A DNA stretch of 64,000 bases from Trichobilharzia regenti (lineage: Eukaryota; Platyhelminthes; Trematoda; Strigeidida; Schistosomatidae), in contig OX235270.1 in the NCBI GenBank assembly GCA_944472135.2, positions 44,206,352-44,270,351 on the forward strand. The letters run 5' to 3'. Below are positions 3,901 to 64,000 of this stretch, one piece after another; position 1 is the first letter of the stretch; each line of letters starts with the position of its first letter. The position numbers and the translations under genes are program-made. The notes below the pieces were generated by a model that saw only the letters and a list, made by a program, of their open reading frames with translations, made no database searches and had not been told where the DNA came from.

Positions 3901-6900
3901 TACCAAACCTGTGGAACAAAATCGTAGCTAATACTTTAGATGCAACTGGTTAGAGACAAATAATTTGATGACTGTCACATCCATTACGTTGGCCATTTTT
4001 TGAGGACATGCACTATGATGGGATACTTTCACCAGAGTTTCTTAATTGTCAAGGATTATTTGCCTAAGACAAGTTTTTAATACTACTTAAGTATTTGAAG
4101 TTCCTTTCAGACTCCCCTGTGTTAGGTGGTGTTAGTTAACGACGGTGCACTGTACTCTATAATAACTAATATTAGGACTGTCTGTCATCTGAAATGTTTC
4201 TCAGATTGTCCTATGCAGCTTTCTATTTTGTCAGTGGCAGGCAGCCAGACCATCTCACTGACATCATTCTTCTTACTACTAGTGGTTTGGACAAGCCTGG
4301 GCAGATTATGACTATCGCCAAATACAGCTGCTGATTCCGCGTTACATGTACATTCTGACCAAAAGGCTTCTAGACCCGTAACTGAACACTGTTTGATATC
4401 ATGCGCAATAGTCTTACACACAATATCATACACACTATCTGCAGGAATTGACCTACAGTTTCATATTCGACTTTAGTAGTGAACACAACCAATTTACTTG
4501 CATCAGTCTTTTCGAATGACATTTATAATTACCACCAAATCACAAGATGAAGATGGCTCACACTTAAACATGATCGGAATCCAGAGAAGTGCTCCAGAAG
4601 GTAACTGATATAGATGTATTTTGTTTGAGTCGATGCTTGAGTGGCTAAGGTAAGACGCTAGTTGGCACTGTAGCGATGACTATGCTGGGAGTTGGATCTG
4701 TTTAGAAATAGGTTGTAATCGGCTCAAACCCACAGAGAATACTCCCCATTATCTGACGTGTAGCCATCTAGTGCTTACGGAGTACCTAAACAACTCTCTT
4801 TTGAGCTTAGATTCCTGACCTTCGCGCTGGATTCGTCGGCTAAAGCTATGTCAAGCGAGCCCTGTTGAGAAGGGGCATAGCCAAAAGTGACGAAAAGAGA
4901 GGGCTTCTCTGATTGGTCGCTTCCTACCCTGATATAACCTTCAAGAGTAATAAGACATAAACGACTTTTAATGGAGATCCATTCGATTAATTCTGCTGCA
5001 GCCCTGATGTTTAATGCGACGGCAGTACCAGCTAATATGGACCCCGATGTCTCAGGGAACACAGATAAGCGCACATGAAACATACTGTTCTTATCTGTAA
5101 GTGGAAGAGGTACTCTAAGCCCTTCACTGAAATTTTTTATGTGAGTCCCTGAGATGCATCCATAATCCACATCGAGGCTTTCCGGGTTCTCTGGATTTAT
5201 CTGCCTGTTCTTGGATTTACATTAGTGTGCAAATATTGTAGGTACCAAGTTTTAACGCCTTGTCACAATAACCTCATTAGAAATCGCATTTGAGGCCAGT
5301 TTTCTGTAGGCAAGTAACTAGCAACCCAAAGTGTTACTCGGAGACTGACATCCAAGTCAATAATGAACGGTCGACGCACATGAAGATAAAGAAAAACGTA
5401 AAAATAGAAATAAAGAGAAATAGTTTATGTAAAAATCTTTATGGTATTAGATGAAATCACTGAATATTCAATTTGTGGATTAATTTACAAGAACGTCGGT
5501 GGCACAGTGGTTAGGACTCTCGCCGACCATCCACATGGTCCGGGGTTCAAGCCCACGCCGGCGCACACCTGATATCTATGTTCGGCCTGCAAAATTTGGA
5601 CTACCGATATCACATGCTAAAAATTCCATACTTGTAGCAAAAATACAGTGTGGAATCAAGCTGTAAATAAAAAAAATATAAAAAAACATACAGGCGAGTT
5701 GAATTTTCTGCTTGTTTATTATTATCATTTTATCCCTTAACTCCTAGAGGAACATAGGGCTTCAGCTGCGTGTCTCCGTTACCTTCTGTTTTCTGTCAAC
5801 TTTTTCACCCCACTCCAAGTCTGCCCATATGCTCTCATCTCCCCTTCACATGACCTCCTCCAAGTCACCCTATCACTGACGCCGCCCGCTTCTCTTTCGG
5901 GTTCCACTCGAGCGATGGCTCGTCTAGTGATGTCACTTGATGGTTTCCTCAGAGTATGGCCAGCCAATCCATCTCCATTTCTTCCTGCCTATTTGTTTCA
6001 CAATCGGTTCCTGTTGGGTTGGTTGGCTCATTGCCAGAGATCCCTCCCTGTCGCTGATCTTTTCTGGCCGGCCATCTGATCTTGACCGGAGTACTGAGCG
6101 AAGACAACTGTTAATGAAGGTCTGAAGTTTGTTTGAGATGCTGTTTATGACGCACTGGCCAAGTCTGTGATCCGCATAGAAAGTAGCTGTGACTGACTTC
6201 ACATTGGAGTTGAAGATCCGGATCTTATTTTTGATGGTGAGTGATGTTGACCTCCACACAGACTTGGTGAGAGTAATGAAAGCTTGTCTTGCTTTTCCGA
6301 TTCTCGCTTTGATATCCTCGTCACTTCCGTCCGCCTGTGGTTGAAACGATGCTTCCCAGTCCAGTGGGTAGGTAAAGGAGGTTGTTTCTCTCAGGTTCCT
6401 CCATTTATGCTGGCTGATTGTTGTCTGTTGTTCTTGTGGCTGTTGGTGGTTTTGGCCAGGAATCTTCATCACCTCTGTTTTATCTATGTTCACCTGAAGT
6501 CCAATCTTCTCTGGATGCTTCTTCTGCCAACTTGTTGTTGCTTTTGACTTGCATATCTTCCAGTTTGTGGGAAATCAGACATATATATGTCATCAAGGGC
6601 GAAGTCCAGATCCTCCAAGTCTCTTTTTGTGTGAGTCCATTTTATGCCTGTTTCTTCATTGCCCGCTACTGTCTGTCGCATTATCCAATCTACTGCAACC
6701 AGGAAAATCATTGGCGATAGTAGGCAGCCTTGTCTTACTCCCGTCCTCACTTCGAAGGCTTCCGAAAGTTTCCCGTTGTGGATTACTTCGCATGCAGAAT
6801 TGTCGTATAACTGTTGGATGAGATGTATAATTGTCGATGACACCCCACTGTAGTAGCGAAGTAGTTTCTAAATCACCTCTCGATCGACGCTGTACTATCG

Positions 6901-9900: not shown

Positions 9901-12900
9901 GACAATCTAGCTACTGAAGCTGAAAAGGCAGCAGGCAAAAGGGACCTGAGGACACTATATCAGATAACCAAATCTCTATCCGGGAAGAGACCAACACAAG
10001 CGAAACCTATAAAAGACAGCCAAGGGAAGCCCATTACCAAGGAAGAAAAACAGATTAAACAATGGGCGGATCACTTCAAAGGACTCTTGAACCGACCATC
10101 ACCTGCAACCCGTCCAGAAATACCAACAACAGCGCGCACACAACTGCAAGTTGACACCAATCCTCCAACGAGAGCTGAAGTCTTGAATGCAATCAAACTT
10201 CTGAAAGCTGGAAAAACAGCCGGACCAGATGGAATACCCCCTGAAGCACTGAAAGCAGACCCAGAGACGACAGCAGACATGCTGACTCCATTATTGCAAA
10301 AGGTCTGGAAGGAGGGAAAGGTGCCTACTGACTGGAGGAAAGGTTACCTCGTGAAACTACCAAAGAAGGGCGACTTAGGACTCTGCAAGAACTGGCGAGG
10401 AATCATGCTCCTATCGACGCCAAGTAAAATCCTGAGTCGCATCATCCTGGAGAGATTAAAGGACGCACTGGAGACAGAACTCCGACCAGAACAAGCTGGA
10501 TTCAGGAAAGGCAAATCATGTACTGACCAAATTGCAACTCTACGCATCATCATCACAGAACAAAGCATGGAATGGCAATCAAACCTCTACCTCAACTTTA
10601 TAGACTTTGAGAAGGCCTTCGACAGCGTTGATCGTGAAGTAATTTGGAAATTACTCGAGTACTATGGCGTACCCCAAATATTCATCAACCTTATTCAACA
10701 GCTGTACGACAACGGCACATGTCAAGTGATCCACAACGGAAAACTCAGCGAGGCGTTTGGAGTAAACACAGGAGTCAGACAAGGGTGCTTACTATCACCA
10801 ATGATATTCCTAATTGTGGTGGACTGGATTATGCGTCAGACAGTGGGAAACGAGAAGACAGGAATATCCTGGACCGACGTGAAGAACCTAGAAGACCTGG
10901 ATTTCGCGCGTGGATGATTTATGTTTGATGTCACACAAAATCGAAGACTTACAAGCGAAAACCGACAAACTGGTCGAAGAAGCAGCAGCGAAGACAGGAC
11001 TCCAGGTGAACATAGACAAGACGGAGGTTATGAAAATAACCAACCAACAACAGCAACAACATCCAACGTCAATCACCATCAACGGGAGGGATTTGAAAGA
11101 GGTTACTTCATTCACTTATCTAGGGAGCATTGTCTCAACTACAGGAGGAGCGGACGAGGATGTCAAATCGAGCGAGAATCGGGAAGGCGAGAAACACATT
11201 CATCAGCCTGAAATCAATCTGGAAATCTTCGTCACTCAGCATCAACAACAAAAGTCGGATTTTCAATACAAACGTAAAGTCAGTTCTTCTATACGGATCA
11301 GAAACTTGGCGGCGGGTCACAAAGAATATTTCCAACAGGTTGCAGACCTTTATCAACAACTGTCTTCGCTCTATACTGAAGATCAGATGGCCGGAAAGAA
11401 TCACCAACAAGAAGCTATGGGAAAAAACAAAGCAAGAACCAATCGCCCAACAAATATGCAGGAGAAAGTGGAGATGGATCGGACACTCGCTGAGGAGACC
11501 GCTGGGTGACATCGCGCGCCAAGCCCTCGAGTGGAACCCGAAAGGGAAGCGGCGAGTGGGACGTCCAAGGGTGACATGGAGGAGATCGTGTGAAGAGGAG
11601 TTGAAAGAATATGGATTAACATGGATGCAGGCGAAAAGTATAGCAGAAGACAGAAGAAAATGGAGACGTGCAGTTGAAGCCCTACGTTCCACTAGGAACC
11701 CAAGGGAGCAATAAATAATAAATAAATAAAAACTTTGATTTTGAAATGCTTTCATAGTCGGGTGTTACTTAAATTGATTAAGCTAGAAATAAGTGATTGT
11801 CTTGTGTTTAACTATAAATTTATCATGGTAATACTGGCTAGTCAGGAATAGCTATAGCTACAGTTAAAATTCATACTCATTCACTCCTGTGCATCGAAGA
11901 ATTTGGTTTTCAGTAAACACGGTCCTGCTTGATAATAAAACAAATAAACATTTTCAACGTGTTTGTGGGTATCTATTGTGTGGTACATCTTGATAATGAG
12001 ATATATCATATCTTGCCTTTTTTCATTCGAAAGATCACATCTGACTAATTTTCCCTTTATTTTTCATTCCTTATTGTTGTATTATATTGTTGTATTATTA
12101 TCCTGTCCACGAATTTTTCGAGTAACTAGTACAGTGACACCACATCAAGTACTGGAGTAGCCTTAAGACTAACTTAAAATAATCACAGGCCTATGGAAAC
12201 GACTTTTTTTAAATTGAAAACACTCGGATCGTGATAATGACAATCAATCAAATCCCTATAAACCAATACTTGAATATCGATAAGATGCTCACTGGCGAAT
12301 GGCCTTATTCAGGTAGGTAGTTACCTGCGATCCTAGTGAGAAGTCGTGACCAGTAGGATACAGCACGTCAGGCGTGAGGACAAATACTCGCCGAAGAAAT
12401 TGGCTAGTGGTCGCAATATGTCGTGAATTGGCAGAAGTTGGAATTCATGGACTGGCTGGTCACTGGATCGGGTCCCAGTGGCTAAATGGTCTACGAGCTA
12501 GCTTGCCTTGTAACCAGAAGGTCCTGGGTTCGAACCCTGGCGCGGTGGTGTGTTCGTACTGCTGAAGAGTCCCAAACTACTGGGATGAAGCAGCTGTCCA
12601 GTACTCCCATCTGGTTTTCCAATGGTTCTCTAATTGATGTCAGCTCATGATGAAATCCCGTAACCAATCAATCAAATCCCTTCAACCCAATACTTGAATA
12701 GTCTTTTATTTATTTGATATTTTTGATTGCATAGTGATGCTAGCACTCATAAAGCAAATTTTTATAACGACAGTTGCAGTTGACATGGTTACGCTTAACT
12801 TGTTTTTTATATAGCTTGTCTAAGTGATGCTTAACCCCATTGTATTCACTGCTCAATCATATATCTGTTTAACCTTGTCCATAGAAATGGGTCTTTAAAA

Positions 12901-30900: not shown

Positions 30901-33900
30901 CAGTTAGAGAACCACTGGAAAACGTGGGAGTACTGGACATCTGTTTCGTCCAAGTTTGGGACTCTTCATCAGTATGCACTCACCCCGTGGTTCGAACCCG
31001 GGACCTTCTCGTTACAAGGCTAGCGAGCTCGTAGACCATTGAGCCACTGGGACCCGATCCCTTGGCCCTTGAGTTCTAACTTCTGCCAATTCATAACATA
31101 GCGCGACCACTTCGCAATGTTTTCTCCGATGAGTTACTGCCCTATCTTTGACCTGCTGTACCCTACTGGTCACGGCTTCCCACTAGAACCCCAGGTTAAC
31201 TGCCTGAATAGGGCCAGTCGCTAGTGAGCATCAGATTAATTTTCAAGTATTGGTTTTGTAGGGATTTTGTTTGATGATTGGATGGCGGACTTCACCATGA
31301 TCTGGTCTACGAGATCGCCTTGTAACCAGAAGGTCCTGGTTTCGAACCCGGTGGGTGGGTAATGCTGAAGAGTCCCATGCTAGGACGAAACGGTCGTCCA
31401 GTACTCCCAGGTTTTCCAGTGGTTTTCTAACTGATGTCAGCTCATGGTGAAATCCTCCATACAATTTACTAAATTAGCACCGTTTAGGAACCTACTGGGA
31501 AAATTAAAGAAGCATTGCACAGACTTTATGTCATGTTCTGTATACTATTAGTCCTTAGTCCCTTAGAGTCTTCTGACAGAATTGTCCTGTGATGGTTAAG
31601 GCTAGCATTGGAAGTGAAAACGTTGTGTTGCATGTTTTCTGCAAGTTAGAATTAGTTGGGCGACGTTAGCATTAAAAAACAGAGCTATTGTAGATAAATT
31701 TACATTAAAAAAAAGGACAATAGCAATAAAGATACGACAGAAAACATCGAGAGACAAATCGCAAAAGTGCCTAAGGAACTCAAAAAAAAAGAAACTGATC
31801 GACAACCAACTCATACCCTAATGGATCCCGTTTACTTTTAGTGTGTGGACAACTAAAAATATATAACGAGAACTTACTTATTAGGCCTATTCTGTCTATG
31901 AGTCAATTTCCCTAACCATAAACTTACTTGCCGGTTAGCACAAAAGCTAGAAAATATTCGGGAAAAATTATCAACCTACACCTTAAAAGACTCGTTTTAT
32001 TCTGTGAAAAGAAAAGAAGAATTCAGTGTATCCGAGAAAATTATGATATCCTATGGTATACAGTCCCTGTTTATGAGCATTCCCCTTCAGGAAACAATGA
32101 TTATCATCTGTCGATGTACAGGACACATCCATTACCAACGGCTGATATAAGACAACTCCTCCTCCTCACTTATACCAAAGATGTCCAACTGGAATTTAAC
32201 TTGCTATATAGGCAAGTAGACAGATTAGCAATGGGCAGTTTGTTGGATACAGTAATGTCTGATATTTTCCTGTCCCATCTAGAAAATACTACCTTAAACT
32301 CTGCATTCACAGCAAGTTTGGTTTATTCAAGGTATACAGATGTTATTTTTATTGTAGCTGGTGACGCTCATCATCCAGAAATAATTCCACAGATGTCCAA
32401 CAGTATTTATTCCAACATCAGATTCATAATGGCACATGAAGTCAGAGGATAACTCCACTTTCTTGACTTATGCATGAAAAAAGCAGATGGAACAACAGAA
32501 TAGAGTATTCATTGTCAAACAATCTGGAGTAGTCAGTACTTAAAATTCAGCCTCTTCTACCCTATAAACTACAAAAGAGACAGCAGAAAACCTTTGCTCC
32601 AAAGGAACATTACGCAGCGGAATCAATCTCGTCAATGAATGTTTAAGGGACAATGGATATTCAGAACTATTCGTAGATAAGTAGTGTAAAGGTGGTAATT
32701 GGAAACCATTGTTCCTTCAGTTAGAATTCAAAGGTGATGAATAGGAGACTCCAGTATCAAGGACGTATACAACCTCCAAACTAGTGCTCCTGTATAAAAC
32801 AGTCTGTTCACCTACATAGTCTAAACTAGACCAATTTTCCGCTCTCATTAGCTCCTGATTTGTTTATGAAATCATATGTAAATGCAATAGCAAATAAGTG
32901 GGAAGAATAAAGACCTTATTTTCTTTGAATAACTTTCTACATGACTACCTAATAATCTCCACTTATGCCTGCGTTATCCTTGAATTCCAGGACTTTTTCC
33001 TCTCCTTTTTAATCATAATTGATTATTCCAACTTTGTGTAAAATTTGTACTTCAACTGTCACTCTATGAGGTTGTAAGGCTGTATCGGTTGAGATGCCTA
33101 GGATACCTTTTACGCATGTCTAGCTATCGCCTTCCTTGACGGGCAATGTTAGCTGATATAAGATCAGGTTAAAAAGAGCTAGTGATTGTCAAACCAAAAC
33201 ATGGCTTCATCAGTCAATGAAATCCTCAACCGTCAGTTTAAGCCATGTAGGGAGGTGTAGACTGTCTGGTTGGGGTCCTCAGGATGTCAAAAATCACTGA
33301 CTGGAGACAGTTGGTGATATGGCTCGAAATCGATTTTAGTGGTCCAGATGCATTCACTCGTTATAATCTGCCATGTAGTGAAAAAACCCCATTGTTTTTC
33401 ATTTAACCATTCTTTCCCCCTTACACTCCTGCTTATAATCACTCTTTTGCATCTCTTTTTTTGTCTTCATTTGTGTGATACATGGGGTGTGGTAAGTTGA
33501 ATTTTTGCATTTTTGTGCAAAATTCTATGTTGAAACCAGTCAATCTCCGTTTTCAGTGTATTATTTCACTGTTATAAAGTCAACTGACTCATTTAAAGTA
33601 TGTTCAAATTATGTTACACCCTGATTGCTTATACAGTTTTTATTATTCAAGGAATATGTAGCTGATGAAGACCCTATGAAATAAAATGCATTCATGTTAA
33701 CCTGCAAAAGTTTTTGTGATTGCGTTATTCAAACTTATCAAGGGAACTGATTATGTGAAATAATCATTCTACTGAATTAACATGCTGCATAATTCATCCT
33801 CTTCTTGTCCACATTATGCTTTTGTGCACATTATTATGTAAGATTATTTTGATATTCAGTCGCTTTTGTTAGAGTGTGTTAAAAAATGAATAATCATCGC

Positions 33901-54294: not shown

Positions 54295-54526
54295 TTAACT
54301 TCCTTGATTTTTTGATGACTGATCTGACTTCCCTGAACCACCTGATACCAGAGAAATTGTCAATTTTAGAGGTGACTGGTGACGATTGACTGATCCGTTG
54401 GAATATTTGCATTCGAACTGACCAGATGCATTCGCAGAGCTCTTGTAACGAACCACGCCTCTAGACGATGACACACGGTAATTGTCTTCTGTTTCGTCTT
54501 CTAGACGCTGCTGTTCTGCTATACGT
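54295..54526 (-). CDS. SGF11: SGF11 homologue exon 2
   Basis: One base completes a Lys codon; then 76 further codons and a stop follow. The join reads NSSRRANKRIAEQQRLEDE, which parallels NSSRIANRRIA of the vertebrate protein and supports the splice. Confidence 0.85.
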
Positions 54527-55287
54527 CTAAAAATAAAGGAACTAATTTACTCATACGCAATAATTACCAAATAAAAAATGGTACTTTAGTTGGCTGAAAT
54601 AACAAACAATGAGTTTGCTGAACAAATCACTGGAATATGTTTGATGTGTAACTCATGGGACTTAGAGAAAATACCGTTTATTTTTAAGAGGTTCGATTTA
54701 ACGAGTATCAATGTGTGCATTTCTGCTAACGATTTACTAGTAATCCTATAGTGTATTAAGCTTGTAATAAGCCTATGTAGCTTTCCCATTTGTCGCCGAC
54801 GACCTTTCCACACGTGAAGCAGCGTATAGGAATAATCATTCGCAGTTACACCATGCAATAAATCACAAGAGTAAAACCGTGACGGTTAGTATCCTATAGT
54901 ATCCATGAGGAGAAAAATCAGTTAGAAATATCACTGGCAGAAAGGTCTCACTTACTTGTTTGCCCGTCTTGAACTGTTTCTTCCCAAACCCATACAATTA
55001 GACAAATGAGCAGCATAGCGTGTTGCAGCAACTTTACAATTACATTTTCCACATCGACAGCAACTTGTATTTTTGTTTGGATCCTTGCTAGAACCTGAAT
55101 TTGAAGCACTATTGTTGTCAGAGAAATCTTGATTAGATTCGGCAGCAATAATATGAAAATATCCTAGCTTAATTGCACGATGCATTATTAGAATATCATC
55201 CATTATACATGAATCAATTAAATCTGAGATGAATTCTTGTAGGACTTCTTGAAGATCAGCTTTGTCAATCGAAAATGACTTTTGCAT
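54295..55287 (-). CDS. SGF11: SAGA-associated factor 11 homologue (ATXN7L3-like), two exons
   Basis: SGF11/ATXN7L3 is a nuclear adaptor of the SAGA deubiquitinase module. It activates the ubiquitin protease that removes ubiquitin from histone H2B and docks the module on the nucleosome. Exon 1 (55287-54956) encodes LQEVLQEFISDLIDSC, MHRAIKLGYF, an acidic/Ser-rich linker and the zinc finger CGKCNCKVAATRYAAHLSNC followed by MGLGRNSSRRAN. The ligands are Cys, Cys, His, Cys. The donor is GTAAGT and the acceptor TTTTTAG. Exon 2 (54526-54295) encodes KRIAEQQRLEDETEDNYRVS and a Ser-rich tail to the TAA. The total is about 187 residues, shorter than vertebrate ATXN7L3 and without its C-terminal SCA7 domain. 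The start ATG at 55287 fits the family N-terminus. Confidence 0.88.
54753..54887 (-). pseudogene. RPB10: 3'-truncated retrocopy of trans-spliced RPB10/POLR2L mRNA
   Basis: Inside the SGF11 intron, same strand. The first 36 bases (54887-54852) equal the schistosome spliced leader (starting AACCGTCACGG, ending TTGCATG) with one mismatch as I recall it. A 12-base leader follows, then ATG at 54839. Codons 1-27 read MIIPIRCFTCGKVVGDKWES and YIGLLQA, matching the start of RPABC5, the small zinc-binding subunit of RNA polymerases I, II and III. Codon 28 is TAA where the family has Glu (GAA), then Tyr, and the copy ends. ACTATAGGATACT precedes it and ACTATAGGATTACT follows it, a likely target-site duplication. 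No introns or poly(A) tail are present. It cannot make the full protein of about 67 residues. Confidence 0.9.
54852..54887 (-). other. Genomic copy of the 36-nt spliced leader (as cDNA)
   Basis: The 36-base match is followed by GTGTAACTGCGA and the RPB10 ATG. It is not followed by the rest of an SL RNA gene, so it arose from a trans-spliced mRNA and not from an SL RNA locus. Confidence 0.88.
54956..55287 (-). CDS. SGF11: SGF11 homologue exon 1
   Basis: 110 codons plus two bases. It carries the N-terminal helix that packs against the other module subunits and the Sgf11-type zinc finger. Confidence 0.88.
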
Positions 55288-59770: not shown

Positions 59771-62569
59771 TTAAGGAGATAGGCCATTTGGATGCAGTCC
59801 TTGTATCGCTGCATGGTTGTCCAGCCTTCGCTTAAAGGCGTCCAAAGACGGTGCCATAGCTACATCTGCCGGTAAGGAATTCCAGGGACGACAAACCCGC
59901 AGTGAAAAGAAGTGGGAGCGCACCCGGGTCCTTGCCCTCTGGTGAGCTATCCTTCTGGGATTTCCACGTGGAAGCCTATACCTACTCAATGGCAGAACAC
60001 CTTTGTTTGGGTGATTCTGGTCATTTGTTATTTTGTAGGCAGTAATCAAATCCCCCCTAAGCCGACGGTAACTAAGTGTGAACAGGCCTAATTTCTTCAG
60101 CCTTTCATCATATGGTTTGTTTCGGAGACCAACCACTCCTTTTGTTGCCCGTCGTTGGACTCTTTCCAAGAGGTTGGCATCTCTTCTCAGCATTGGGGGT
60201 GCAATAATATTATGCACCTCAAGGTGTGGCCTGACGTATGTTTTGTACAACATTAGAAAGAGCTCAGGAGTGAGTGCACCTAACTGTCTATGCGTAAAGT
60301 GTATGACCGCATATGCCCTCGCTACATCCCCTGTGTAATTTACGCTTGTGTCCATTTTTTCCGTTAGAACTAGACCTAAGTCGCGTTCCGACGTTGTGCA
60401 GGACAAGCTTTCATTGCACAGGGTGTAACTTGCATTCTGCAGTCTACAGGTGCGCAACTTCACTACTTTGCACTTTTTCAAGTTGAAAGTCATGCCACTG
60501 GCCACCGCCCAGTCTTCCAGAAGGTTTAGGTCTTCCTGTAGCCTATCTGAGTCCTCCGGACACTTTATCGCCCTCCATATTTTTACGTCGTCAGCGTACA
60601 GGAGAGTCGGGCAGCTCAGACGGCGTGGTAGATCATTGATGAAAATCAAAAACATCAGTGGTCCTAGGATAGAACCCTGCGACACTCCTGATGACGATCT
60701 GTGCCAAGATGATCGGACTCGGTTAACCTTAGTGCAAAATTGCCTGTCGGCTAGGTAGTCCTTCAACCATGACAGAAGTGGCTCACCTATGCCTGCCTGG
60801 CTTATTTTATGTAGGAGAAGGTCATGGTGAACAGTGTCAAATGCCTTCTCAAAGTCTAGGAAGACCACATGGACTGGTACGTTCAAGTCCCAGCATGATG
60901 TCCAGTCGTCCCAAGCTGACAGTAGGTTAGTGACGCAGGATCTGCCTTTTCTGAAACCATGTTGGGCTTCATGTAGTATATTAGTCCTATCGAAATATTC
61001 CCTGATGTGGTCGTCAATAATACTTTCCAGTACTTTTGATACCACTGGGAGTAGAGCTACTGGTCTATAGCTAGCAGCGTTTTGCCTGTCCCCACCCTTG
61101 AAGATTGGAGAAAGGATGGCTCTTTTCCACTCCCTTGGCAGGGTCCCCGAATCCATTGAGTGTTGGAACAAGTCGCACAGGGGTCTACAGAGAGCCTCGG
61201 CGCACTGTTTCAGAACAGATGGCCTGATGTCATCACAACCTGGGGACTTCCCAGGTATGAGTCGCTGTAGCTTCCTTAGTACTATTGCGGGGTTTATTTG
61301 GGGAGTAGTCGCTAGGTCTTCCTCCTCTGAAATAGTGGTGCCACCATTTTGGTCCGTAACTGTAATATCCACATTGCTGTTTAGCTGTTTAGCGAAGGCT
61401 GAACTGAATGTTTCAGCCATCTCCAGACTAGTGAGATATTGACCGTTTGGGCCTACTAAGGCGCATGCCCCTTGGTTTGTCGGTTTTCTTTCCGACATGA
61501 ATCGGTACAAGTTTTTAGGGTTTGATAGGAGTTTTTTAGCAAGGTTAGCCTGGAATGACCTTCTGTCCCTCCTAACTCTTGCATTACACCGGTTCCTGAG
61601 TTCGAGGTATGCATCATGGTCGGTCTGACTCTTAGATACACGCCACGTAAACCAAGCCCTCCGCTTTGCTTGCAGAATACGTTGCGTGCCTCTCTTCAAC
61701 CATGACGTCTTTCTCTTAGGCTGTGTTGTGACTAAAGGGACGGTATCCGAGATTGCTGCATGGATAATCTTTTTTACCACTTCCCAGTGTTCATCCACAG
61801 ATAGGTCGTCCCATGCTAAGGGCCAGTCTGCGTCGGACAAGAGCCTCCGCATTTCAGCATAGTCAGCCTTGCTGTAGCACAGACATGGTCGCGTAACATC
61901 CCATTGCAAACGCTCACGGAGGACAAGATCGAAACCTATGACTGCATGGTCACTGCTTCCCAGAGGAGTCATGATCTGGACCTTTTCGACGAGTAGCTGG
62001 TCACTAGTTAGAATATAATCTAGTTTTGATGACTTTCCACTAGGGCCCCACCTAGTGTCGTCTCCAACATTCTCAGTCAGTCCCGTGTTTCGAATAGTTT
62101 GCAGTAGGTTTCGGCCAAATTTTCCCTTAGCACACCCGGAGCCAAGGTTCAGTGATGGAGCATTGAAATCTCCAGCTATGGTGATTTGGTCGTAGCCCAA
62201 ATCTCGTATTCCTGTGATAGTGCTGAGCAGTAGCTGATTGTGCTCTGCCCCACAGGTGGGAGATCGGTAGATGCCACCCAGTAAGTGCTTGGTGTGGCCT
62301 ACGGTGAAATGACACCATATGGAGTCTGGGAGTTCGATAAGTGGTGGGTCCGTTGCGCGCACACATTTAAGTTGCCTATCAAAGTATATAGCAACTCCCC
62401 CTCCTTCCTTATTATCCCTGTCTCTCCTGACCAGTACCATATCACCTATACTGATTTCATTGTCGGCGATAGTGGGGTTTAGCCACGTTTCAGTAAGAAT
62501 GATTATTTTCAGTTGAAGGTGTGCTTGGAGATTTCGGAGTTCACCTACTTTCCCTCTCAGCCCCCTCAC
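59771..62569 (-). CDS. CR1-type LINE endonuclease-reverse transcriptase (ORF2)
   Basis: 932 codons as counted from the GTG at 62569; the open frame extends about 100 bases further upstream. The endonuclease covers roughly residues 1-220: ILTETWLNPTI, GGGVAIYFD, IAGDFNAPSLNL, SKLDYILTSD and GSSDHAVIGFD. The reverse transcriptase follows: SPGCDDIRPSVL, SPIFKGGDRQNAASYRPVAL, HGFRKGRSC, FLDFEKAFDTVHHDLL, SSGVSQGSILGPLMFLIFIN and the catalytic LLYADDVKIW. The C-terminus ends with the RSHFFSLRVCRPWNSLPADV motif common in CR1-type LINEs. All catalytic residues appear intact, so this copy may be recent. Confidence 0.88.
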   Translation of the reverse strand: MRGLRGKVGELRNLQAHLQLKIIILTETWLNPTIADNEISIGDMVLVRRDRDNKEGGGVAIYFDRQLKCVRATDPPLIELPDSIWCHFTVGHTKHLLGGIYRSPTCGAEHNQLLLSTITGIRDLGYDQITIAGDFNAPSLNLGSGCAKGKFGRNLLQTIRNTGLTENVGDDTRWGPSGKSSKLDYILTSDQLLVEKVQIMTPLGSSDHAVIGFDLVLRERLQWDVTRPCLCYSKADYAEMRRLLSDADWPLAWDDLSVDEHWEVVKKIIHAAISDTVPLVTTQPKRKTSWLKRGTQRILQAKRRAWFTWRVSKSQTDHDAYLELRNRCNARVRRDRRSFQANLAKKLLSNPKNLYRFMSERKPTNQGACALVGPNGQYLTSLEMAETFSSAFAKQLNSNVDITVTDQNGGTTISEEEDLATTPQINPAIVLRKLQRLIPGKSPGCDDIRPSVLKQCAEALCRPLCDLFQHSMDSGTLPREWKRAILSPIFKGGDRQNAASYRPVALLPVVSKVLESIIDDHIREYFDRTNILHEAQHGFRKGRSCVTNLLSAWDDWTSCWDLNVPVHVVFLDFEKAFDTVHHDLLLHKISQAGIGEPLLSWLKDYLADRQFCTKVNRVRSSWHRSSSGVSQGSILGPLMFLIFINDLPRRLSCPTLLYADDVKIWRAIKCPEDSDRLQEDLNLLEDWAVASGMTFNLKKCKVVKLRTCRLQNASYTLCNESLSCTTSERDLGLVLTEKMDTSVNYTGDVARAYAVIHFTHRQLGALTPELFLMLYKTYVRPHLEVHNIIAPPMLRRDANLLERVQRRATKGVVGLRNKPYDERLKKLGLFTLSYRRLRGDLITAYKITNDQNHPNKGVLPLSRYRLPRGNPRRIAHQRARTRVRSHFFSLRVCRPWNSLPADVAMAPSLDAFKRRLDNHAAIQGLHPNGLSP

Positions 62570-62667
62570 ATTGCTATATAGGCAACTGACAGTGAGTCTA
62601 ACAACCTCAGAGTGTTGTGGGGTAGTTGACGTGAAACCGTCTGCTGGTGGGGGACTTGATGTTGGAA

Positions 62668-63759
62668 CTAGTTGGCCGATTCCGATAGAACCGGCCCGTT
62701 GTAGTTTTTTTCAATGGATTTAGGCAGGACACTTGGGAGACACAGACTATTATTCTCAGAGCTGCATCGCTCTAGTGTCACCGAAGCTTGGGGTCGTATT
62801 AAAGCCTCAGTTTGCTGCCTCCTTATATTTCTGGGTCTGCTTTCACAGCATCGGATGTGTCCTCCAATTTTTCCCTTGGTCTCATACCACCGTTGAAGTG
62901 ATATGGACAACTGCTCCGGGGAGTTGAATGTGACACACAGCAGCTTTGGAGAGTTAATCAATGTTAGATGAGCGGGACGAGGTAGTCGGAAAATGGAGAT
63001 GGCTCCAGAAGCGCCAGGGGCCATCTGAGATGACAGCCATCTCCATTGTTGTACGTCGTGCATGTGTTTTTCACAAGCAGTGCCGGTTTCCAGCTCCGGA
63101 ACACCGTGTACCACCATAGAGGTGGAAGGCATCAGTTCCGGTGACTCCCTCGCCATATTTCTGACGGCCCATGGTCTATCTTGCCGCGCTCTTATGTTAG
63201 AACTTCTGTCCAGGGCTAGTACCTGAGCCATTAACAGTACTTTTTCGGCCTCTTCGGCAGAGTCCAGTGTAACCCGTAATGGGGGTGGCTTACCCTGAGG
63301 CGTGTGGACACCCCTGTACAGTCTGCACAGTTTTGCTGAACTAATGTTCAGACCTAGTTTGCCACACAGGTTGGACCACTGTTCCTGATCAAACAGGGCC
63401 CGTTGTTCGAGCAAGCTATCCGTGCTCACAGGTACGTTAAAGAGGATGAGAGAGTTAGACCGACTACCCTCAGACTTAGGTTTTGCCTTCGGCTTCTTGC
63501 AGTCCTTTGCATCATTAGCAACATTAGGCTTCGTCGGTACCTGGACAGCCTTTTTTGTGTTGCCAGGCTTGCTAGTGGATGCAAGTGGTGCCTTTGTAAT
63601 TTTGCCCTCCCCTGATGTGGATGGAACCTTGCTAATCTTCACCTTGTGAGAATTGGCATTTCCAGTCAGTAGGGCTGGTGTGTCCTTCTTTAAGTCTTTG
63701 ACCAGTTTCGGCAGTGCGAGTTTAGCAGGGGGGAGCTGCATGATACTGTGTTGGGGCAC
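62668..63759 (-). CDS. CR1-type LINE ORF1, C-terminal part
   Basis: A 363-codon frame: a basic, Pro/Ser/Lys-rich region up to about residue 100, then SNSLILFNVPVSTDSLLEQR, which looks like an RNA-recognition-type fold (LILFNVP...), and a second related block (STSMVVHGVPELETG). The frame upstream of 63759 continues from the PHD-finger part in a different frame, which suggests a one-base indel near 63740-63760. The protein would bind the element RNA. Confidence 0.7.
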   Translation of the reverse strand: MPQHSIMQLPPAKLALPKLVKDLKKDTPALLTGNANSHKVKISKVPSTSGEGKITKAPLASTSKPGNTKKAVQVPTKPNVANDAKDCKKPKAKPKSEGSRSNSLILFNVPVSTDSLLEQRALFDQEQWSNLCGKLGLNISSAKLCRLYRGVHTPQGKPPPLRVTLDSAEEAEKVLLMAQVLALDRSSNIRARQDRPWAVRNMARESPELMPSTSMVVHGVPELETGTACEKHMHDVQQWRWLSSQMAPGASGAISIFRLPRPAHLTLINSPKLLCVTFNSPEQLSISLQRWYETKGKIGGHIRCCESRPRNIRRQQTEALIRPQASVTLERCSSENNSLCLPSVLPKSIEKNYNGPVLSESAN

Positions 63760-64000
63760 AAGAGCATGTTATTTCTGCTATCCGCAGACACGCTTTGTGG
63801 GACTATGCCAGGGCGACAAAGTGGACACACGTACCAAAACCATGGGCATGGGTTATTTCTCATAAACTCATAGTATGCTTTCGGTACTTCTTTGTCACAA
63901 CGGCAGTGCACCCATCGTTTGCAAAAATTACATTCAAACGCTGAATCAGTTTTAGAAACTGTGATGCTGCACGCCTGGCATTCATCCCCTTTCCTTGATG
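63690..64000 (-). CDS. CR1-type LINE ORF1, N-terminal PHD-like finger (partial)
   Basis: Reading from the window edge: CQACSITVSKTDSAFECNFC, KRWVHCRCDKEV and later WFWYVCPLC. The spacing Cys-x2-Cys ... Cys-x2-Cys ... His-Cys-x-Cys ... Cys-x2-Cys is that of a PHD-type zinc finger. The start lies beyond the window. The frame runs out at 63690, while the rest of ORF1 continues in a neighbouring frame. Confidence 0.72.
   Translation of the reverse strand, partial: SRKGDECQACSITVSKTDSAFECNFCKRWVHCRCDKEVPKAYYEFMRNNPCPWFWYVCPLCRPGIVPQSVSADSRNNMLLCPNTVSCSSPLLNSHCRNWSKT

Follow-up and report, generated by a model that had tools for sequence, protein, structure and literature searches.

A 5'-complete, 3'-truncated copy of a trans-spliced RPB10 mRNA within an SGF11 intron of Trichobilharzia regenti

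Introduction

How did the beginning of one gene's mRNA, spliced leader (SL) included, come to lie inside an intron of another gene, complete at its 5' end and cut short at its 3' end? The question is raised by 135 bp in an SGF11 intron of the trematode Trichobilharzia regenti, which the original prediction had read as a retrocopy of an SL trans-spliced RPB10 mRNA. We examined this locus in the window (the whole stretch of DNA analyzed, 64,000 nucleotides on contig C8) and searched the 954-Mb genome assembly (G000) for its relatives.

Relics of SLs in genomic DNA are known from dinoflagellates and flatworms and tailless retropseudogenes from mammals and a lizard, the two separately. Dinoflagellate retrogenes are marked by SL relics (PMC6050394). 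Work on Schistosoma mansoni reported 32 extra SL loci, of which six are merged with transposable elements (PMC5832876), and a study of 24 flatworms discarded 597 SL loci near mobile elements (PMC12582326). Both papers suggest that trans-spliced retroelement RNA was integrated, and the former also allows for mis-assembly. Tailless retropseudogenes have been described in therian mammals and the green anole and are held to depend on L1 (PMC5322556), and the schistosome LINE clades reported by 2005 were CR1, RTE, and R2 only, with no L1 among them (PMC1291365).

Results

The copy occupies positions 54887-54753 of the window on the minus strand and corresponds to the 5' end of a trans-spliced RPB10 mRNA. 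It is composed of a complete 36-nt SL (54852..54887), a 12-nt RPB10 leader running from the trans-splice acceptor to the ATG (54840..54851), and RPB10 codons 1 to 29 (54753..54839), with direct repeats of 13 and 14 bp outside. Read on the minus strand within the intron, the order is ACTATAGGATACT, the 135 bp of SL, leader, and RPB10, and then ACTATAGGATTACT. We assign the two repeats to a target-site duplication whose 5' copy (54888..54900; 13 bp) is one T short of the 3' copy (54739..54752; 14 bp); the flanking-repeat score was equalled by 19 of 200,000 random placements within the window. The 27 intact residues encoded by the copy match RPABC5/RPB10 in the PDB (E value of 1e-13) and the RNA_pol_N family in Pfam (3.9e-12). 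The copy has TAA at codon 28 where the gene has GAA; this breaks the reading frame, and no function is predicted for the copy.

The SL pattern of S. mansoni (PMC3795323) has a single match in the window at up to 3 mismatches, and none of 100 shuffles contained any, which rules out a chance occurrence. The leader of the insert is one base off the S. mansoni form, and the original prediction had counted this base as a mismatch. The same 36 nt, with no mismatch, are present in 14 tandem copies at C6:6739948-6755687, spaced by about 1.2 kb (1,202 bp between the two examined), which rules out a mutation in the insert and identifies its SL as the species' own leader, complete from base 1. The SL pattern gave no match in the genome-contig and viral-contig collections scanned, and our literature look-up found no mention of the variant TGATTTATTGCATG.

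With the insert as query, the RPB10 gene was found on a different contig from the window, at C1:143255499, with its 67 codons in a single open exon (L002, 1514-1714). Directly upstream of this exon lies a pyrimidine-rich stretch that ends in AG, and the acceptor TTTTTCAG^GTGTAACTGCAAATG falls exactly at the SL junction: the insert reads SL followed by GTGTAACTGCGAATG, and its first base past the SL is the first exonic base of the gene. Compared with a spliced model consisting of the SL and the gene from the AG acceptor onward, the insert is identical at 132 of 135 positions, in agreement with the retrocopy and the coordinates that had been predicted. The three differences lie in the leader (11/12 identical) and in the codons (2 in 87 nt), at codon 8, where the change is silent, and at codon 28. 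The template was a mature trans-spliced RNA bearing the SL, and the locus shows that RPB10 mRNA has undergone trans-splicing in this lineage, as had been claimed. Given that the coding region of RPB10 has no intron, RNA processing is visible at the SL junction only.

The BLAST match between gene and insert is confined to the interval between the SL junction and nucleotide 9 of the repeat, and the flanks of the gene are unrelated to those of the insert. A duplication of the RPB10 locus as DNA is ruled out by the point at which the match begins, the SL junction. Likewise, the insert is not a copy of an SL-tagged transposon, since its body is RPB10, found at two genomic locations. Searches with the protein and with 400 bp of gene DNA, which score the best candidates only and in an assembly that may be incomplete, each returned the gene and the insert and no third RPB10 match.

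The host intron (54527..54955, minus strand) measures 429 nt, or 281 nt once the insert and one repeat are subtracted. It separates an upstream coding exon that encodes the Sgf11 zinc finger (54956..55287, minus strand; start taken from the protein match) from a downstream coding exon that includes the stop codon (54295..54526, minus strand). Two Trichobilharzia szidati proteins are 95% and 78% identical to the upstream exon, and a T. regenti protein is 74% identical to it. A second SGF11 gene is located at C1:92966633-92967511, its first exon 77% identical to P0053. SGF11 is thus duplicated in this lineage, and two such proteins are also present in T. szidati.

This duplication provides an empty site for comparison. 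The test proposed for an orthologous intron was run on the paralogous one, which lies at the same place in the second gene and measures 318 nt. It contains no insert sequence and carries the target 14-mer once, as ATTATAGGATTGCT, with 2 mismatches (6 for the next best 14-mer) and at the position aligned with the target in the window, as expected for an insertion. The presence of GGATTGCT in the paralogue favors the view that the ancestral repeat was the longer form with TT. The lengths of 318 and 281 nt indicate that the introns also differ by other indels; 27 extra nucleotides of the paralogue adjoin the target in one alignment and lie further upstream in another.

The window also contains mobile elements. 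A LINE at 59771-63768 on the minus strand has an open 979-codon endonuclease-reverse transcriptase frame, with domains at 59771-62710, and, overlapping it upstream, a 366-codon frame with no Pfam match. The original prediction had credited a local LINE with the copying. Although the window LINE encodes both an endonuclease and a reverse transcriptase, nothing ties it, or the partner LINE of the SINEs, to the insert. Six near full-length tRNA-type SINEs (at 5494, 14297, 16160, 42505, 43201, and 49085) show no clear target-site duplications, and none has a flanking repeat comparable to that of the insert. The 13/14-bp duplication of the insert is near the 10 to 12 bp given for the RTE element SR3 (PMC1291365). 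Three type I hammerhead ribozymes at 12556-12604, 30930-30975, and 31359-31404 fit a schistosome-like repeat content, such ribozymes having been described for the SINE-like Sm-alpha elements of schistosomes (PMC2770079).

We then turn to the 3' end. As had been noted, the copy includes SL nucleotide 1 and is therefore complete at its 5' end, while at the other end codon 29 directly abuts the repeat, with no A tail. Past codon 29 the gene continues with GCTGAAGGAGATGC, and in the insert the target repeat follows; codon 30 is GCT in the gene and ACT in the repeat, so the mRNA-derived part stops exactly at codon 29. An exon end at this codon, a check suggested with the original prediction, is ruled out by the single coding exon of RPB10. 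Of the routes to the 3' loss that had been listed (internal priming, template switching, or a partial transcript), we find internal priming the likeliest. Our preferred reading, to which we give a probability of roughly 0.8, is that the insert is a 3'-truncated tailless retropseudogene of a trans-spliced mRNA, made by internal priming at a nicked site in the SGF11 intron.

By this mechanism, the SL-bearing spliced RPB10 mRNA would have been reverse transcribed directly onto the nicked intron. The endonuclease of a non-LTR retrotransposon would nick the bottom strand beside ACTATAGGATTACT, and the freed 3' end (...TCCTATAGT) would pair imperfectly with GCUGAAGGA in the mRNA (codons 30 to 32). 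From the paired end, the reverse transcriptase would extend to the 5' end of the RNA, and a second nick about 14 nt away would yield the duplication.

Beyond codon 29, 8 of 9 target positions can pair with the mRNA when G·T pairs are counted and 6 of 9 under strict identity, the last primer base forming a G·T pair only. The 8/9 pairing was equalled at 2 of 587 positions of the mRNA model, the junction among them, and by 426 of 127,972 14-mers in the window (0.3%), though a length of 9 flatters the pairing and the model extends past the poly(A) signals. When the pairing length was left free from 6 to 12, 745 of the 127,972 14-mers did as well (0.6%), and for strict 6/9 identity the figures were 10/587 positions and 1,318/127,972 14-mers (1.0%). 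At other fixed lengths, the pairing was equalled at 46/590 (length 6), 3/588 (length 8), 6/586 (length 10), 31/584 (length 12), and 78/582 (length 14) model positions. The priming stretch is not especially unpaired when the mRNA is folded on its own, as 212 of 280 windows are equally or more open (253 of 319 when the model includes the second poly(A) signal); in this predicted solo fold the truncation point does not lie in a single-stranded region. Such poor accessibility would weaken membership in the class of tailless retropseudogenes rather than the mechanism itself.

A different origin would be an RPB10 cDNA made elsewhere by any reverse transcriptase and captured as filler in a staggered double-strand break, with fill-in of the overhangs producing the 13/14-bp repeat. 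Such capture requires neither a tail nor end specificity, no LINE is attributable to the insert, and the tRNA-type SINEs of the window do not have repeats of this kind. This genome also contains a locus (L058, described below) in which an SL-tagged frame lies directly behind what we take to be LTR-element-like sequence. However, the junctions contain no filler, the copy begins at the first base of the mRNA, and target and mRNA pair at the junction, so that we regard cDNA capture as improbable.

We also consider it unlikely that the template was an RPB10 RNA 3'-truncated by degradation or cleavage at codon 29 and that its end was copied directly. Some LINE reverse transcriptases initiate at RNA ends lacking a tail, which would suit this route, but it does not predict the pairing between target and RNA past codon 29, which is seen, though imperfect, and codon 29 is no exon end. 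For the mammalian tailless copies, such truncated RNAs were sought and, by the published account, none were found (PMC5322556).

Deletions are common and the mRNA sequence GCTGAAGGA resembles ACTATAGGA of the repeat at 6 of 9 positions, but it is very improbable that a full-length tailed retrocopy later lost codons 30 to 67, the 3' UTR, and the tail, because the deletion would need to end precisely where the 3' repeat begins, a joint at the shared AGGA or CT would have retained the GCTGA or G of the gene where the junction has the ACTAT of the target, and no further RPB10 match was found among the best candidates scored in the assembly. Internal priming needs no such later deletion, since the duplication begins at the base right after codon 29 (the preceding T and C differ).

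Across the assembly, the SL pattern at up to 3 mismatches has 70 sites and a reversed control has none; the survey demanded a near-complete SL, so 5'-truncated copies were missed. The flanks of all 70 sites were classed by the sequence following the SL. Eighteen sites are SL RNA genes or fragments (14 of them in the array), 13 are pieces of SL RNA joined to a tRNA-type SINE at the SINE's 5' end, 14 belong to three other repeat families, 3 lie in two palindromes, and 7 are others, including the RPB10 copy. The remaining 15 share the same junction in a repeat family that we take to be a Pao/BEL-like element (L004, L005, L007, L008, L020, L062, L066, L067, L068, L075, L076, L077, L080, L083, and L084), an SL-bearing element that multiplied.

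The 13 fusions with SINEs are in sense orientation and dispersed (L006, L022, L037, L038, L060, L061, L063, L065, L072, L074, L082, L085, and L088). Their SL RNA is either nearly complete or shortened to about 85 or 55 to 60 nt; with the linker counted, the SINE joins at SL RNA position 93 to 97 in nine, at 85 in one, and at 55 to 60 in three. The linkers are mostly different (shared in L006 and L061 and in L072 and L082), and a single amplified subfamily is not expected to give such variety. The fusions look like template jumps comparable to the U6/LINE-1 chimeras, in which a small nuclear RNA likewise stands in sense orientation at the 5' end of a retroposed element (PMC13174262); the RPB10 copy, unlike those chimeras, is not fused to an element. 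Among eight fusions checked for flanking repeats, an 8-bp repeat in L010 abuts the SL and follows the A-rich tail of the SINE, and the best repeats of the other seven do not abut the SL.

Two palindromes are centered on the 5' end of the SL, one of about 570 bp (L035, 1177-1744; C2:21.95 Mb) and one of about 133 bp (L036, 1797-1929; C8:135.88 Mb). The SL begins with AACCG-TCA-CGGTT, so that its cDNA could form a hairpin at the 3' end and serve as its own primer.

The other sites outside these classes comprise two copies of one unknown sequence (L096 and L071), a second unknown sequence (L087), and two loci with open frames. In L058 (C1:88068275), an SL with the S. mansoni-type G is followed by a 161-codon frame that starts at the ATG of the SL, is presumably coiled-coil-like, and has no Pfam match; it lies directly behind the RNase H end of what we take to be gypsy-like sequence and is a possible fusion of an LTR element with an mRNA. 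L073 holds two copies of an SL and TDP2-like mRNA (C7:37723123 and 37724952), inverted and identical over 1,151 bp, whose frame starts at the SL's own ATG. In a relative at C8:42.6 Mb (92% identical), the two stretches joined in L073 are separated by about 3.7 kb, so that this copy looks processed too. Between the SL and the first match, L073 has 41 nt that were not found in the 8 kb examined. The similarity stops near a GTAAGT in the relative, and a search for flanking repeats gave no clear duplication, so we do not extend the tailless pattern to this locus.

Discussion

The original prediction had described the truncation as the reverse of the usual loss of 5' sequence. The orientation holds, and 5'-complete, 3'-truncated copies are a described class (PMC5322556). 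The tailless retropseudogenes of that account are, like the insert, complete at the 5' end, truncated at the 3' end, without a tail, and flanked by target-site duplications; mRNAs are among their sources, and their sites are complementary to the RNA at the truncation point over 2 to 18 nt. The insert differs from them in its schistosomatid host, its trans-spliced template, and its imperfect pairing, and its priming stretch is not predicted to be especially unpaired, whereas the mammalian truncation points are reported as single stranded (PMC5322556).

As in the insert, the DNA leader upstream of the copied mRNA body marks passage through a trans-spliced RNA in the retrogenes of dinoflagellates; the account of these emphasizes large numbers of surviving genes, whereas the insert is a dead fragment of 135 bp with a readable footprint (PMC6050394). 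The SL loci of flatworms share with it a genomic SL outside the SL RNA genes, but the sections consulted in the two studies present no locus with a parent gene, a duplication, an empty site, and a 3' junction (PMC5832876, PMC12582326). No flatworm SL-mRNA retrocopy with its target site was among the literature matches listed, and one could be in print, e.g., in supplements. The novelty is modest: an SL-mRNA retrocopy and the tailless class are combined, in a lineage for which that 2005 account reports no L1 (PMC1291365).

Taken across the genome, these sites suggest that SL RNAs are recurrent substrates of retroposition in T. regenti. We tentatively propose, as a possibility that we would not call probable, that an L1-free schistosomatid machinery repeatedly captures SL RNA, that the SL is a common handle into retroposition, and that tailless copying extends beyond L1. 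Three routes might then be at work: end-to-end template jumps from SINE to SL RNA, with varied junctions in the 13 fusions; snap-back copying at the 5' hairpin of the SL, in the two palindromes; and target-primed copying of an SL-mRNA from an internal site, at RPB10. The terminal hairpin and special cap that these RNAs share through the SL may steer them into retroposition.

At this locus, the retroposition of an animal trans-spliced mRNA can be read throughout, from the parent gene and its acceptor through both junctions and the duplication to a paralogous empty site. The RPB10 copy suggests that tail-independent internal priming also occurs outside L1 systems, and because the SL acts as a tag, any flatworm genome can be screened for such events.
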